A stretch of 25,778 nucleotides of DNA from a virus: positions 1 through 25,778 of the IMG/VR virus record IMGVR_UViG_3300046656_000023; one strand, written 5' to 3'. The notes beneath the pieces were generated by a model, which did no database searches, had not been told where the DNA came from, and was given only the letters and a program-made list of their open reading frames with translations. This document shows, piece by piece, positions 4,164-25,778 of the stretch; position 1 is the first letter of the stretch, and the number at the start of each line of letters is the position of its first letter. Made by a program: the position numbers and the translations under genes.

Positions 4164-4627
4164 TAGACGTTACCTTCTTTACATTTCTTTACGTATATGC
4201 GTTCCATCAACTCGAAACCCAATGTCTCGAATATCGGTTTCGTATGATAGACTTCGCGATACGAATTATGTATCTCTTTTATTCCTAATGCTATCAACTG
4301 AGGCTCTACCGCAGCGAACAACTGTCGGCCTAGACCCTGCCCTCGATAATCTCGTGATACGGCAAACGTGTCACAATGCGCTGTCATTAGGCCACGATGT
4401 TTTATATTGTTGGTCAATAGATAGAGCGCCGCTGCCACCATCTTACCATCATCGCGGCCAACAGTTAGATGGAGGACGCTATTAATATCAAGCCGAGTAT
4501 AAGCATCCCAATTGAAATCCAGAGGAATGTGGCCGCTATTCTCTGGCGAATTATCCCAGTATTCGTAGACGAATTTGCCGTATTCCGTTTGTATTTCTCG
4601 GAATGACTCACGAGCAAACGTAATCAT
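4163..4627 (-). CDS. GNAT-family N-acetyltransferase (second of two in the late operon)
   Basis: This is a 154-aa protein, the normal size of a single GNAT domain. It shows the acetyl-CoA-binding motif A, RGQGLGRQLF at about residues 95-104, preceded by the beta4 strand (CDTFAVSRDYRG). The C-terminal motif-B region is KPIFETLGFELMERIYVKK. The fold and acetyl-CoA use are firm; the acceptor is unknown. The gene sits between two putative internal virion proteins and overlaps both neighbours by one base (TAATG at each end). It is therefore made with the virion proteins late in infection, which suggests a virion protein or a host protein met at that stage as substrate. It is not closely similar to the other GNAT gene upstream. 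Confidence 0.85.
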   Translation of the reverse strand: MITFARESFREIQTEYGKFVYEYWDNSPENSGHIPLDFNWDAYTRLDINSVLHLTVGRDDGKMVAAALYLLTNNIKHRGLMTAHCDTFAVSRDYRGQGLGRQLFAAVEPQLIALGIKEIHNSYREVYHTKPIFETLGFELMERIYVKKCKEGNV

Positions 4628-5757
4628 TAGAATGCGCCTACGGTGCCTAGACCACGCTTCTCATTCTGGTTTTGCGCTAGTGTAGGATCAAGTGGTGCGT
4701 CGCCTACACCACCCGGCGTTGTTGGTCCGCCTGAGTTAGCGCCTTGCACGCTACCACCCTGATTAAGCAATGTCTGCAAGTCGGCGAACTTCGTGTTGCC
4801 GAGCGAGCTACGTATGTCGCCGCCTAGTGTTCCTATCTGACGGCTGGCTAGATCATGCGCTCCACTTACATATGTATTGGGATCGAAGCCCTCTAGAGCG
4901 CCAGGGTTCATATTCCCGACTGTGGTATGAGCACGCGAGATATAATCGCTTAGTGCTTGCCTATCTTTGTCTACGATACCCGAGCCTATGCTACGGACCT
5001 GACTTTCGGCGGCTGTCTTGCTGCCTGATAGTGCATCGAGCGCTGCCTTATAACCAAATTCGTTAAGGGTTCCGCGCTTGTTGGCGTTCTGTAGCTGCGA
5101 CGATAGCGGGTCGAATTGTGAGCCGAGGATTTCACCTACATATGGGTCTATATTGCTATAATTAATGGCAGTGTCGGCATACGTCGAAGGTAGCAGCGAT
5201 GTAAGGGAGTTGTCGGCGCGTGTTCTGGCACCTGTCGATATGTTATTGAGAATAGATTGACCTAACGTTGGCGAGAATGCTGCCATTGGATTTGGATCGA
5301 GGTCTTGCACACCTTGGCGAGCGGTATTGAGCGCCGGTATAATGTCCGATTGCATATACTTATTGGGATCGAGACCCTGTTGGGTAAAATAATTAGTGAT
5401 ATTGCTGAGGCCTGTATCGTAGGCACCTTGTAGTCGTGTATCGAATGTTGACTTAGCCGATGCCTTGTCTGCTGCGGCTTGAGCTACGGCGGCGTCACTC
5501 GTTGCTTTCTCGCCAGCTTGACGTTGCGATATTTCGGCATTGAGTTCGTCTTGTGCATTCGTATAATCTATCTGCCCAGTGTTATAGTTCATCGTGCCAC
5601 CGGGTTGCTGCACGAAAGTCTTACCACTCACCGGATCAGTGAGCACAATTGGCGGCACTATCTGTGGCGCTGCTCCACCACCTCCGCCACCCTTACCACC
5701 ACCACCACACAATCCACGAAACTCTAAGTGCGAAATAGCGCCCGGTGTCAACATCAC
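4627..5757 (-). CDS. Putative internal virion protein with Gly-rich N-terminus, ~376 aa
   Basis: I do not recognise a named family. After the first 15 residues comes a low-complexity tract CGGGGKGGGGGGAAP, then Pro/Val-rich sequence and a long helical Ala/Gln/Asp body (GEKATSDAAVAQAAADKASAKS, then NITNYFTQQGLDPNKYMQSD). The start is uncertain. The frame can begin at GTG 5757, at ATG 5754 (TGATG overlap with the previous stop, favouring re-initiation) or at TTG 5712. The TTG would give MCGGGGKG, an N-terminus I associate with podovirus internal proteins. It lies between the two GNAT genes. It shares composition and general helical character with the 351-aa protein downstream but has no obvious alignable identity. 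Ejection protein is an inference. Confidence 0.6.
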   Translation of the reverse strand: MMLTPGAISHLEFRGLCGGGGKGGGGGGAAPQIVPPIVLTDPVSGKTFVQQPGGTMNYNTGQIDYTNAQDELNAEISQRQAGEKATSDAAVAQAAADKASAKSTFDTRLQGAYDTGLSNITNYFTQQGLDPNKYMQSDIIPALNTARQGVQDLDPNPMAAFSPTLGQSILNNISTGARTRADNSLTSLLPSTYADTAINYSNIDPYVGEILGSQFDPLSSQLQNANKRGTLNEFGYKAALDALSGSKTAAESQVRSIGSGIVDKDRQALSDYISRAHTTVGNMNPGALEGFDPNTYVSGAHDLASRQIGTLGGDIRSSLGNTKFADLQTLLNQGGSVQGANSGGPTTPGGVGDAPLDPTLAQNQNEKRGLGTVGAF

Positions 5758-23091: not shown

Positions 23092-23108
23092 GACCGTTAA
23101 TACCTCGT

Positions 23109-23124
23109 GTAGTTAACTACTATA
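23109..23124 (-). promoter_or_regulatory. Candidate late promoter -10 and overlapping palindrome
   Basis: GTAGTTAACTAC (23109-23120) is a perfect 12-bp palindrome. On the minus strand it overlaps TATAGT (23119-23124), a one-mismatch -10 box, about 20-30 nt before the first late ATG. No good -35 is found 16-19 bp further upstream, so an activator or phage-specified polymerase/sigma factor would be needed, or the match is chance. The palindrome is a possible operator. Confidence 0.35.
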
Positions 23125-23370
23125 TGCAGTGAATTACACGTGAGCCTAAGAGGATCGGTGTCGGAATACAACCTGCTATAATACTTCTGAGTCTGGCAAC
23201 GATCTTCGCGGTGTCCTGCTCCCATAACAGAACGAATACCAGATATGGTAGCATTGTGTATGTATCGCTACTACATACTGTGCCCACGCTAAATTTAGTA
23301 AATGTGTCAGATGTCGATTGACGGCCCATCGCGACTGTGCTGCGATCTGCGTCCGGCCCTCTGTAAGTAA

Positions 23371-23394
23371 TGAGGGTGCAGGCGACGGCCCTCA
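23371..23394. repeat. Inverted repeat, 6-bp stem
   Basis: TGAGGG (23371-23376) pairs with CCCTCA (23389-23394) across a 12-nt loop. It is the first of four adjacent inverted repeats in the intergenic region. Confidence 0.5.
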
Positions 23395-23400
23395 CCATCA

Positions 23401-23415
23401 TCCGCGTAATGCGGA
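23401..23415. repeat. Small hairpin, 5-bp stem
   Basis: TCCGC-GTAAT-GCGGA, a compact GC-rich hairpin six bases after the previous inverted repeat. Confidence 0.5.
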
Positions 23416-23424
23416 CCGAATGCA

Positions 23425-23440
23425 AGTCGTAGCTACGACT
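23425..23440. repeat. Perfect 16-bp palindrome
   Basis: AGTCGTAGCTACGACT reads the same on both strands with no central loop. It could be a dimeric protein's operator or a resolution/nicking site. It lies nine bases after the small hairpin. Confidence 0.7.
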
Positions 23441-23491
23441 CGTATATGTCGAAGTGTGTCGTCCCGTTACTACTCGGCGCCGTGCCGTCGT

Positions 23492-23516
23492 CTACAACAC
23501 CTGCAATGAGTTGTAG
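23492..23516. repeat. Inverted repeat, 7-bp stem
   Basis: CTACAAC (23492-23498) and GTTGTAG (23510-23516) are exact complements with an 11-nt loop. Together with the three preceding elements it makes a structured stretch of about 145 bp before the DnaA boxes. Confidence 0.6.
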
Positions 23517-23613
23517 CTAGCGAAGAAACAGACGGGAAACTCTACTAATGATGCGTGTTAACGGTAGATTAACGCCAGTTGCGTGTCGAGCATGTTTCCG
23601 CGATCGACAGAAG

Positions 23614-23743
23614 TTATCCACCGCTTTCTGGTGCTTATTTCGAGTTTCGGCGTCTATACTACTGAAATCATTCACTATCTTACATTTCATTACGCGAAAT
23701 ACTCTATCAGTGTTGTGGATAAGTCTACGTGACGTGTGGATAA
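23614..23743. other. Candidate replication origin with three DnaA boxes
   Basis: TTATCCACC (23614-23622, plus strand) has one mismatch to the DnaA consensus. TGTGGATAA at 23714-23722 and at 23735-23743 are perfect TTATCCACA boxes on the minus strand, exactly 21 bp apart (about two helical turns). Between the first box and the pair lies an A/T-rich stretch (about 23645-23712) that could be the unwinding element. The pair is surrounded by ACGTG repeats. This arrangement is that of a DnaA-dependent origin. Origin function is inferred, not shown. Confidence 0.6.
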
Positions 23744-23839
23744 CGTGGAAGCGTATACACATACGTATTTCGTCGATCCCCAGCATGTTTGATGTCCGCA
23801 CGCTACGGGGCGACTTCCTTTCTACCCCTTTTTGGAATT

Positions 23840-23866
23840 GGCCGGGGGAGTGGGGGGCACCAGGCC
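23840..23866. other. G-rich tract in GGCC-flanked segment
   Basis: The stretch carries GGGGG (23844-23848) and GGGGGG (23852-23857) on the plus strand, bounded by GGCC at 23840 and 23863. It is the longest run of a single base type in the window and stands out from the 50% GC background. Possibilities are a packaging/cos-like site, a strand-asymmetric origin element or a G-quadruplex half; none can be decided here. Confidence 0.4.
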
Positions 23867-24062
23867 GTCGTATATACACAGCAGCGTCGTTGCGGCAGCC
23901 GGCCAAATTTCGTTCGCATCCTGCAACGATGGGTGACGGGACGCACCGCATAACAGGTAGTGCGCGAGGCTGGTCAGTAGTGAGTCGCCGACACCGCGAG
24001 TAACGAACTCCGCCCCACCACTAGTATACACAATCACACTTACACGCATAAATCCACTACCC

Positions 24063-24092
24063 CTAGTTATCGCTATTTATCCCTATTTACCG
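24063..24092 (+). repeat. Three tandem 10-bp repeats abutting early promoter
   Basis: CTAGTTATCG, CTATTTATCC and CTATTTACCG stand head to tail, ending one base before the -35 hexamer. The period (about one helical turn) puts all copies on one face of the DNA. A related decamer, CTAATTACCG, occurs just downstream of the -10 (24124-24133). The repeats look like binding sites for a repressor or activator, or an UP-like element. Confidence 0.6.
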
Positions 24093-24093
24093 C

Positions 24094-24122
24094 TTGACAA
24101 TGGAACACCATCACGCTATATT
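24094..24122 (+). promoter_or_regulatory. Strong sigma70-type early promoter
   Basis: TTGACA at 24094-24099 (consensus -35), a 17-bp spacer, and TATATT at 24117-24122 (one mismatch to -10). Predicted start of transcription is near 24129, giving a leader of about 25 nt to the first early ATG. The reading frame that opens with the TTG of the -35 box is therefore not the true start of the first gene. Confidence 0.85.
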
Positions 24123-24123
24123 C

Positions 24124-24146
24124 CTAATTACCGTAACAGATGGAAA
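24124..24146 (+). repeat. Early leader repeat, copy 1
   Basis: This copy reads CTAATTACCGTAACAGAT followed by GGAAATAC, directly after the -10 box and just before the first early gene. The same sequence, with two substitutions, occurs 221 bp downstream before the second gene. It likely forms the initially transcribed leader and ribosome-site region. Confidence 0.7.
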
Positions 24147-24153
24147 TACCGCT

Positions 24154-24348
24154 ATGACCGCTTGTCTCCCTACCGCTATATTCACGCCGGCTGAAATCGC
24201 TATATACGCCGATGCCAACACCGCTGCGCTTGTTACCGCCGCTATGTCATCGCGACGTATCGCGGCCCATGCACGCAATGTCAGTGCCCGCAAGTTCGCT
24301 ATGCGGCGTGCTATCGCTCTAGAGACGCTAGCGAAGTCACGCTCCTAA
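24154..24348 (+). CDS. Early small hypothetical protein 1, 64 aa
   Basis: The start chosen is the ATG at 24154, about 25 nt after the predicted transcription start. Upstream in-frame TTG/ATG codons lie inside the promoter itself. The protein is Ala-rich and basic toward the end (ANTAALVTAAMSSRRIAAHARNVSARKFAMRRAIALETLAKSRS), probably helical; a nucleic-acid or host-protein-binding early factor is conceivable but unproven. The stop codon lies within the second copy of the leader repeat. The ribosome site is weak (GATGGA). Confidence 0.55.
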   Translation: MTACLPTAIFTPAEIAIYADANTAALVTAAMSSRRIAAHARNVSARKFAMRRAIALETLAKSRS

Positions 24349-24370
24349 TTACCGTAACAGATAGAGATAC
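24345..24370 (+). repeat. Early leader repeat, copy 2
   Basis: CTAATTACCGTAACAGAT followed by AGAGATAC, 2 differences from copy 1. Homology extends left through TCACGCT, but five bases (ATATT, the -10 core) are missing. The leader was therefore duplicated without an intact promoter; it overlaps the end of gene 1 and precedes gene 2. Confidence 0.7.
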
Positions 24371-24374
24371 ACAG

Positions 24375-24587
24375 ATGACTATCGCAATATCCACACCACT
24401 ACTCGCCGTTACCTGCACATTCATTCATGAGAACGGTGAGGAATACGTATCATATGAGCGAACATACTGCGCTGATCGCACACTAGACGAAATGGTCTAT
24501 CGTGCATGGTGCGCACTATGGGATGACAACCCCACCACACAAGGCGAGTGGACACTAGTTCACGTAACAGAGAATGAGGATATCTAG
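24375..24587 (+). CDS. Early small hypothetical protein 2, 70 aa
   Basis: An acidic, aromatic small protein (TCTFIHENGEEYVSYERTYCADRTLDEMVYRAWCALWDDNPTTQGEWTLVHVTENEDI), probably alpha/beta, with three Cys. The ATG is preceded by the second leader repeat (AGAGATACACAG). No family recognised. Acidic early phage proteins often act on host enzymes, but no specific evidence exists here. Confidence 0.6.
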   Translation: MTIAISTPLLAVTCTFIHENGEEYVSYERTYCADRTLDEMVYRAWCALWDDNPTTQGEWTLVHVTENEDI

Positions 24588-24590
24588 ACT

Positions 24591-24722
24591 ATGACCGAAT
24601 ACACTAACGCCCAAGCCGCACTCTACAAGGCATTGCTCGCACGTTTGGCAGATATGAATTGCGTCATACGCCGAGCAGACTTTCACGCTGCACTAAATAC
24701 CCTTGCTCGCTTGGACCGATAG
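24591..24722 (+). CDS. Early small hypothetical protein 3, 43 aa
   Basis: A short frame with ATG three bases after the previous stop and GAGGAT about 9 nt before it (inside the end of gene 2). The product (MTEYTNAQAALYKALLARLADMNC...DFHAALNTLARLDR) is an amphipathic helix-rich peptide. The GTAACAGA element of the leader repeat occurs again upstream (24563). Coding status rests on spacing and ribosome site only. Confidence 0.45.
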   Translation: MTEYTNAQAALYKALLARLADMNCVIRRADFHAALNTLARLDR

Positions 24723-24732
24723 CAACGCTAGA

Positions 24733-24778
24733 CTAGACTATGTTACCATAGCTCGATTGCATTGGTAACGTAGCCTAG
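24733..24778 (+). repeat. Long hairpin after early gene 3 (possible terminator/attenuator)
   Basis: CTAGACTATGTTACCA (24733-24748) pairs with TGGTAACGTAGCCTAG (24763-24778): 16 positions with one A-C mismatch and one G-U pair, loop of 14 nt. It lies 10 nt after the stop of gene 3 and 70 nt before the next ATG. There is no U-tract on the plus strand, so a rho-independent terminator is not certain; an RNase site or attenuator also fits. Confidence 0.6.
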
Positions 24779-24847
24779 CCTCGCTAGGACACCGACTACG
24801 GCAAAACTGCCACACGACTTGTCTGCTAACTGCCAATAACGCCAAAC

Positions 24848-25778
24848 ATGAAAGTTCACACAATGTCTCTCACTACCACACTACAGAACTCGACCACTCT
24901 CTCGGCGCCTATTATGCCCGATCAAATATCTGCACTCGTCAACAAAGCATTGAAAGATGCTGACAAGGCGGACGGTGTAAAGGGCAAAGCACAACAGATG
25001 CTAGCCGCGTGTATCAACGCTCAATTTGAGTTGGACCGCGAAACGCCGCCGACACTACCAGCCGATAAGGATGGCGTGACATATGTCGTCACTATGCCAG
25101 CGTTCTCTGACCTTACGGCTAGCAAGCTGTCTGACAACGCCAAGGTATATCGTAAGCTACTCATTGGCCGCTTTATCACTGCGCCCCCGGTTATCGACAA
25201 GAACACCAAGGACAAGGATACCGCCAAGCGTGCAAAGCAGAACTACGCCAAACAATACCGCATGTTGATTGACGCTATCACGCTCACAAACGCATTGCTT
25301 ATGGCTGGCGGAGGTCAAGTATCGTTTGACGTTACCGCCTCACTGTTCTCATTCCCTGCTGCAATGCTACTGCCAGCGGACCATCAGGCTATCGGTCAAC
25401 TCGACAAGGCTATAAAGACTGGCAGCTACATACCGCTAGACGGTAAGCTATGGCGCGCAGAGGATAGCGAGAATAGTGAAATCAGCTTGAACGCTAGCAT
25501 TGCGCAAGTGGTCAAGTCCCACAATTCGCGTCACGGTATCGTCCCTCGCACACGCTCCAATGGTTCGCAGTCGAATAGCAAGGGTGGCGAACAATCAACC
25601 GAGGCAGTGAAGCTTGACCTAGAGGGTCAGCTAAAGAGCCTCAGTCTACAGATATGCGCCGATAAGGAAGCGGAATACGAAACAACGTGGATTGAAGAGG
25701 TAGCTACCCACCTCCGCAATATTCAGACGTTCGTGCATGAATGCCTATATAAGATTGACCCGCACAATCCAATTAACC
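24848..25778 (+). CDS. Early protein of unknown function, N-terminal 310 residues (runs off right edge)
   Basis: The frame is open from ATG 24848 to the window end. An in-frame ATG at 24863 is an alternative start; neither has a clear Shine-Dalgarno. Residues 1-25 are Thr/Ser-rich. The body has Lys/Asp-rich helices (ALVNKALKDADKADGVKGKAQQMLAAC) and a segment YVVTMPAFSDLTASKLSDNAKVYRKLLIGRFITAPP (about 78-113). A basic KNTKDKDTAKRAKQNYAKQYRMLIDAI stretch follows (about 118-143), then a Ser/Asn-rich linker (about 233-252) and an acidic helical end. No family recognised. Charge pattern and early position fit a DNA-associated or host-interacting protein, but that is speculation. Confidence 0.7.
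   Translation, partial: MKVHTMSLTTTLQNSTTLSAPIMPDQISALVNKALKDADKADGVKGKAQQMLAACINAQFELDRETPPTLPADKDGVTYVVTMPAFSDLTASKLSDNAKVYRKLLIGRFITAPPVIDKNTKDKDTAKRAKQNYAKQYRMLIDAITLTNALLMAGGGQVSFDVTASLFSFPAAMLLPADHQAIGQLDKAIKTGSYIPLDGKLWRAEDSENSEISLNASIAQVVKSHNSRHGIVPRTRSNGSQSNSKGGEQSTEAVKLDLEGQLKSLSLQICADKEAEYETTWIEEVATHLRNIQTFVHECLYKIDPHNPIN

Follow-up and report, generated by a model that had tools for sequence, protein, structure and literature searches.

Early transcription in this phage may be governed from repeats upstream of two of its promoters. An array of TAYCS pentamers at 10-bp intervals lies directly before the predicted promoter P1, a second array stands in the same way before another promoter, P2, and the upstream repeats are probably a regulatory platform, a putative landing site for a protein. 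A similar decamer on the other side of P1 is most simply accounted for as the 5' end of a duplicated translation leader that overlaps the P1 transcription start by chance.

The window, the whole stretch of DNA analysed here (25,778 nucleotides, a virus record), is part of the genome of a tailed phage that is unclassified. Two overlapping or longer viral contigs are identical to it across the overlap; the longest, IMGVR_UViG_3300047090_000036 (G001), has 45,666 bases, and window positions equal its positions minus 9101. Genes for capsid, portal, and terminase are on the minus strand. On the plus strand, genes for a DUF932 protein, a PD-(D/E)XK nuclease, and a Sak4-like protein come after small genes without an assigned family. 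P1 heads the plus-strand side, and about 1 kb separates it from the first structural gene on the minus strand. Neither the DNA of 23100-25778 nor a 310-aa early protein found a match among phage records, and an Rfam search returned none. A portal-alignment search of genome contigs found no relative, and hence pointed to no host. An intergenic cluster of DnaA boxes (TTATCCACC and, on the other strand, two exact copies of TTATCCACA; 23614-23622, 23714-23722, and 23735-23743) is a possible replication origin (23614-23743). The features around P1 are as follows.

24058..24092, plus strand: array of four TAYCS units, period 10 bp (TACCC, TATCG, TATCC, TACCG)
24094..24122, plus strand: promoter P1, -35 TTGACA at 24094-24099, -10 TATATT at 24117-24122, spacer 17
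24122..24158, plus strand: leader repeat copy 1, from the end of the -10 to the gene 1 start codon, containing the 24124-24133 decamer
24154..24348, plus strand: gene 1, 64 aa, no match in family search
24343..24379, plus strand: leader repeat copy 2, 84% identical, reaching the gene 2 start codon
24375..24587, plus strand: gene 2, 70 aa, no match in family search
24555..24571, plus strand: partial leader repeat copy 3, CTAGTTCACGTAACAGA, before gene 3
24591..24722, plus strand: gene 3, 43 aa, no match in family search

An earlier note on this DNA had recognized a near-consensus sigma70 promoter, and P1 bears this out, scoring 11/12 to the consensus as TTGACA-N17-TATATT. Transcription is expected to start near 24129. 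P1 also fits exactly the pattern CTTGAC-N17-CTATAT, the S. meliloti sigma70 query (PMC2573895), a fit that hints at an alphaproteobacterial host. The repeats before it had been described as three in-phase CTAWTTACCG decamers. Three tandem decamers, CTAGTTATCG, CTATTTATCC, and CTATTTACCG, do occupy 24063-24092 with a period of exactly 10, the last of them stopping one base short of the -35, but only the third matches CTAWTTACCG. Four copies of TAYCS-N5, consecutive units being separated by five bases, describe the array better; their starts precede the -35 by 36, 26, 16, and 6 bases. This is the best period-10 array in the 35.8 kb scanned. Its score, 16/20, was reached in none of 100 dinucleotide shuffles of the 35.8 kb; when the 61 bases before the P1 -35 were shuffled 5000 times, it was reached once.

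The second array, at contig 35373-35404, is directly upstream of P2, a sigma70-type promoter (TTGACT-N17-TATGAT at 35411) located 2.2 kb beyond P1 and outside the window, with transcription expected to start near contig 35446. It consists of three TATCG units with exact N5 spacing, starting 35, 25, and 15 bases before the -35, and has the second-highest period-10 score. The two arrays agree within 1 bp in their phase to the -35, and both precede the -35 of predicted promoters that face early genes. Each comprises at least three adjacent direct repeats about one helix turn apart, four units at P1 and three at P2. In the whole 45,666-base contig only two period-10 arrays score at least 14/20, each of them no more than 60 bp before a -35. 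Of 200 shuffles, 1 produced two or more such arrays anywhere, and the chance of both falling upstream of promoters is about 1e-4. The triple TAYCS-N5 motif is confined to the P1 and P2 loci (a scan of the contig for a further triple found none) and appeared in 0 of 100 shuffles. Promoter-like sites at contig 38853 (12/12) and 40838 are without an array. The common unit, phase, and position at P1 and P2 argue for a function of the arrays. Thus the proposal that proteins bind at this promoter is supported for the upstream array, given two arrays at sigma70-type promoters in a common phase, but not for the downstream site.

That site is present as the earlier note had it, a near-identical decamer just after the -10 (CTAATTACCG at 24124-24133). 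It opens a 37-bp direct repeat (TCCTAATTACCGTAACAGAT...ATGAC), whose second copy contains a third exact decamer (24345); a search for a promoter at this copy (24343-24379) found none. Both this third decamer and the second array with its promoter, the latter lying outside the window, were missing from the earlier picture. Because the duplicated gene leader explains the downstream decamer, the proposed framing of the promoter by flanking sites is not supported: an operator on both flanks would need a downstream site free of any other repeat, and this one belongs to the leader. We propose that the duplicated leader carries a ribosome-binding segment and that the downstream decamer lies outside the operator. 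The decamer may weakly bind the putative protein of the upstream array, although nothing requires it. Folding of the leader RNA was no better than that of shuffles.

The promoter and the array differ in their conservation. Our sample comprised the 14 related contigs that extend into this region, with portal identity of about 63-70%; kin at about 90% (L008, L009, and L042) cover other parts and end before the early region. In 10 of the 14 relatives the plus strand has a promoter scoring at least 10/12 at 400-1100 bp from the structural gene. With the window included, 11 of 15 carry such a promoter versus 0.86 expected from shuffles, so a promoter at this place is conserved across the group. The decamer is absent from the corresponding interval in all 14 relatives, and among 80 related loci the only period-10 array at a promoter scoring 10/12 or more is that of L007, the same phage. 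Absence from relatives, which had been named beforehand as evidence against the proposed layout, counts against deep conservation. Its absence at about 70% identity makes the array an addition, by this phage or its near kin, to a conserved promoter.

What might bind the arrays is suggested by gene content. We identified a protein, encoded at contig 4305-4628, that matches phrog_66 (E 3e-6; "excisionase and transcriptional regulator") and weakly matches HTH_17 (below the Pfam cut-off). Its gene comes just before that of a tyrosine integrase (PF00589, E 1e-18, contig 4501-5556); an excisionase-regulator-like protein and a tyrosine integrase are thus both encoded, as in Apl/Cox-type systems. Excisionase-regulator proteins bind direct repeats one turn apart. 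In the mechanism that we propose, the upstream array would be an operator in which each TAYCS-N5 unit takes one monomer of a small DNA-binding protein, the monomers assembling cooperatively, head-to-tail, on one helix face. The bound protein would adjoin RNA polymerase at P1 and P2 and set their output via repression or contact activation. The best candidate for the binder would be the phage's own excisionase/regulator-like protein, acting like 186 Apl at early promoters. An upstream operator is likely; that it is bound head-to-tail, and most plausibly by this protein, is a reading we favor tentatively. Protein binding, the identity of the binder, and the sign of the effect are what we infer; the arrays, promoter sequences, phase, and genes are present in the DNA. 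No triple TAYCS array was found near the integrase, where an excisionase would be expected to bind too.

Several known systems resemble this arrangement in part. Apl of phage 186 recognizes loosely conserved direct repeats spaced 10-11 bp; three adjacent sites are required in vitro, and the protein acts as a repressor of early promoters (PMC7498355). As at 186 pR-pL, several adjacent direct repeats one helix turn apart stand at early phage promoters, and Apl, like the candidate here, is phage-encoded. Unlike in 186, where seven repeats lie between face-to-face promoters and more occur at attP, the arrays are upstream of two same-strand promoters and the contig has no further TAYCS triple. BldC, which reads tandem AATTXXXX(C) and oligomerizes on DNA (PMC5859096), and RdfS, which governs promoters as well as excision and also oligomerizes on DNA (PMC11963761), are HTH_17-type winged-helix proteins that bind DNA head-to-tail. 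The BldC motif resembles AGTTATCGC, ATTTATCCC, and ATTTACCGC of the P1 array; its repeats are spaced 9 bp versus a period of 10 here, and RdfS has no consensus. At promoters, ArcA-type sites comprise tandem direct repeats, two to five in number and often three to five (PMC3798270), but with 11-bp spacing and a host regulator. Early promoters of T4 use upstream elements (PMC2988021); they are strong sigma70 promoters with an upstream contribution that are used at infection, as proposed for P1. Unlike in T4, the P1 and P2 arrays do not match the UP-element consensus. The UP element (alpha-CTD site) was rejected as a candidate: matches to NNAAAWWTWTTTTNNNAAANNN were 7/14 at P1 and 6/14 at P2, which is ordinary for this genome.

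A host factor that is present when infection begins, such as an OmpR/PhoB-type response regulator or the C-terminal domains of the polymerase alpha subunit, could instead read the array and boost the early promoters immediately. Tandem repeats directly upstream of a -35 suit an activator, the repeat numbers of ArcA-type sites and the upstream elements of T4 offer precedents, and in unrelated genomes the gaps between array and -35 fall one helix turn apart (see below). On the other hand, 15% and 34% of background positions match the UP element at least as well as P1 and P2, respectively, the A+T content of the 40 upstream bases is no higher than at array-free promoters, and spacing at known response-regulator sites is 11 bp; we consider host activation somewhat unlikely. 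The layout first suggested for P1, with an early phage protein binding the array and CTAATTACCG and so closing the promoter, draws on two sites that are 41 bp (about four helix turns) apart and differ by one base. We think it very doubtful, as the downstream site forms the 5' end of a 37-bp repeat, the other copy of which is at no promoter, and no CTAWTTAYCG was found just downstream of P2.

The arrays may also have no function and have arisen by chance or repeat slippage, which can create short tandem repeats; their absence from relatives fits such an origin. Two arrays of common unit and phase at two promoters, with the shuffle and placement frequencies given above, make this improbable. Chance being a poor account of both, the upstream half is the part of the layout that we retain as a probable platform. 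Finally, the array could be a set of weak host DnaA sites, tied to the DnaA-box cluster 0.35-0.45 kb upstream and coupling early transcription to replication. The exact boxes in that cluster are the only ones in the 45.7-kb contig, and TTATCS begins the array units. However, units match the DnaA box at 7/9 positions at best (by eye) and the boxes are not kept in relatives, so we regard a replication signal as highly unlikely.

Returning to the operator reading, we scanned genomes for a run of three units preceding a sigma70-like promoter, allowing array-to-TTGAC gaps of 1-13. The scan returned this phage, L117, L118, the L111 family, and four cellular contigs, the cellular count being near chance expectation by our estimate. 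HTH_17-like genes adjoin an array plus promoter in L117 and L122, which are unrelated DNA. Over 74 viral records with TTATCS-N4 arrays, proximity to HTH_17 was not significant (P ~0.5 to 0.7, with three near-identical records counted once). Because this test gave no general link to HTH_17, the candidate binder rests on gene content and analogy. In noncoding DNA the gap from the last unit to TTGAC is 1 and 10 in this phage, 2 in L118 and L174, 1 in L122, 10 in L117, 9 in L120, 12 in L121, and 11 in the L111 family; all are 1-2 or 9-12, and the gap in L119, in a long open frame, is 7. This grouping, drawn from a small set and recognized post hoc, is a lead only. Several matches were set aside: L088-L091, exact two-unit CTATTTAYC matches at which no promoter was seen; L111-L116, one marine family with the array and no clear promoter; and L119, where the match is inside a 249-aa open frame. 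A broader generalization, which strikes us as a long shot, is that TAYCS-N5 arrays in fixed phase to a -35 make up a promoter module that recurs across unrelated phages and bacteria (this phage, L118/L174, L117, L120, L121, and L122), read by polymerase-touching head-to-tail oligomers, and that here an excisionase-like protein couples excision to early transcription.

If the operator reading is correct, phased pentamers beside a -35 would be a sequence-only cue to an early control operator in an uncultured phage family, and would also name a candidate regulator. An excisionase-like protein acting at early promoters would be an added case outside the P2/186 group. More broadly, the comparison shows that an early promoter may be retained among relatives while the control attached to it changes.

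Some further features were observed in these and other loci. TTATCC-type phased repeats lie two bases before TTGACA at L118 6324-6378 and near L174 5249, and in L118 a DUF932 gene comes after the array and promoter. In our phage, the near-palindrome ATTTACACGTGTAAAT occurs beside P1 (24038-24053, 3 mismatches), downstream of P2 (contig 35474-35489, 1 mismatch), and before the DUF932 gene (contig 39612-39627, 2 mismatches), three sites versus 0.2 in shuffles; it is a possible repressor operator. A two-block leader repeat, CGACTTGYC...TAACTGCCAA, has three copies (contig 33919, which is window 24818, 34954, and 35494), two of them shortly before start codons. Pairing of CTTGCC..CTGCCAA leaders with a short RNA predicted at contig 40838 was rejected, the duplex energies not being exceptional. 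In this region (contig 40838-40950), TTGACT-N17-TAATAT precedes the short RNA, which carries a T run and a strong hairpin resembling a terminator and is possibly a small RNA or an attenuator. The 40838 site and P2 have TTGACTTTGGCGTA in common.
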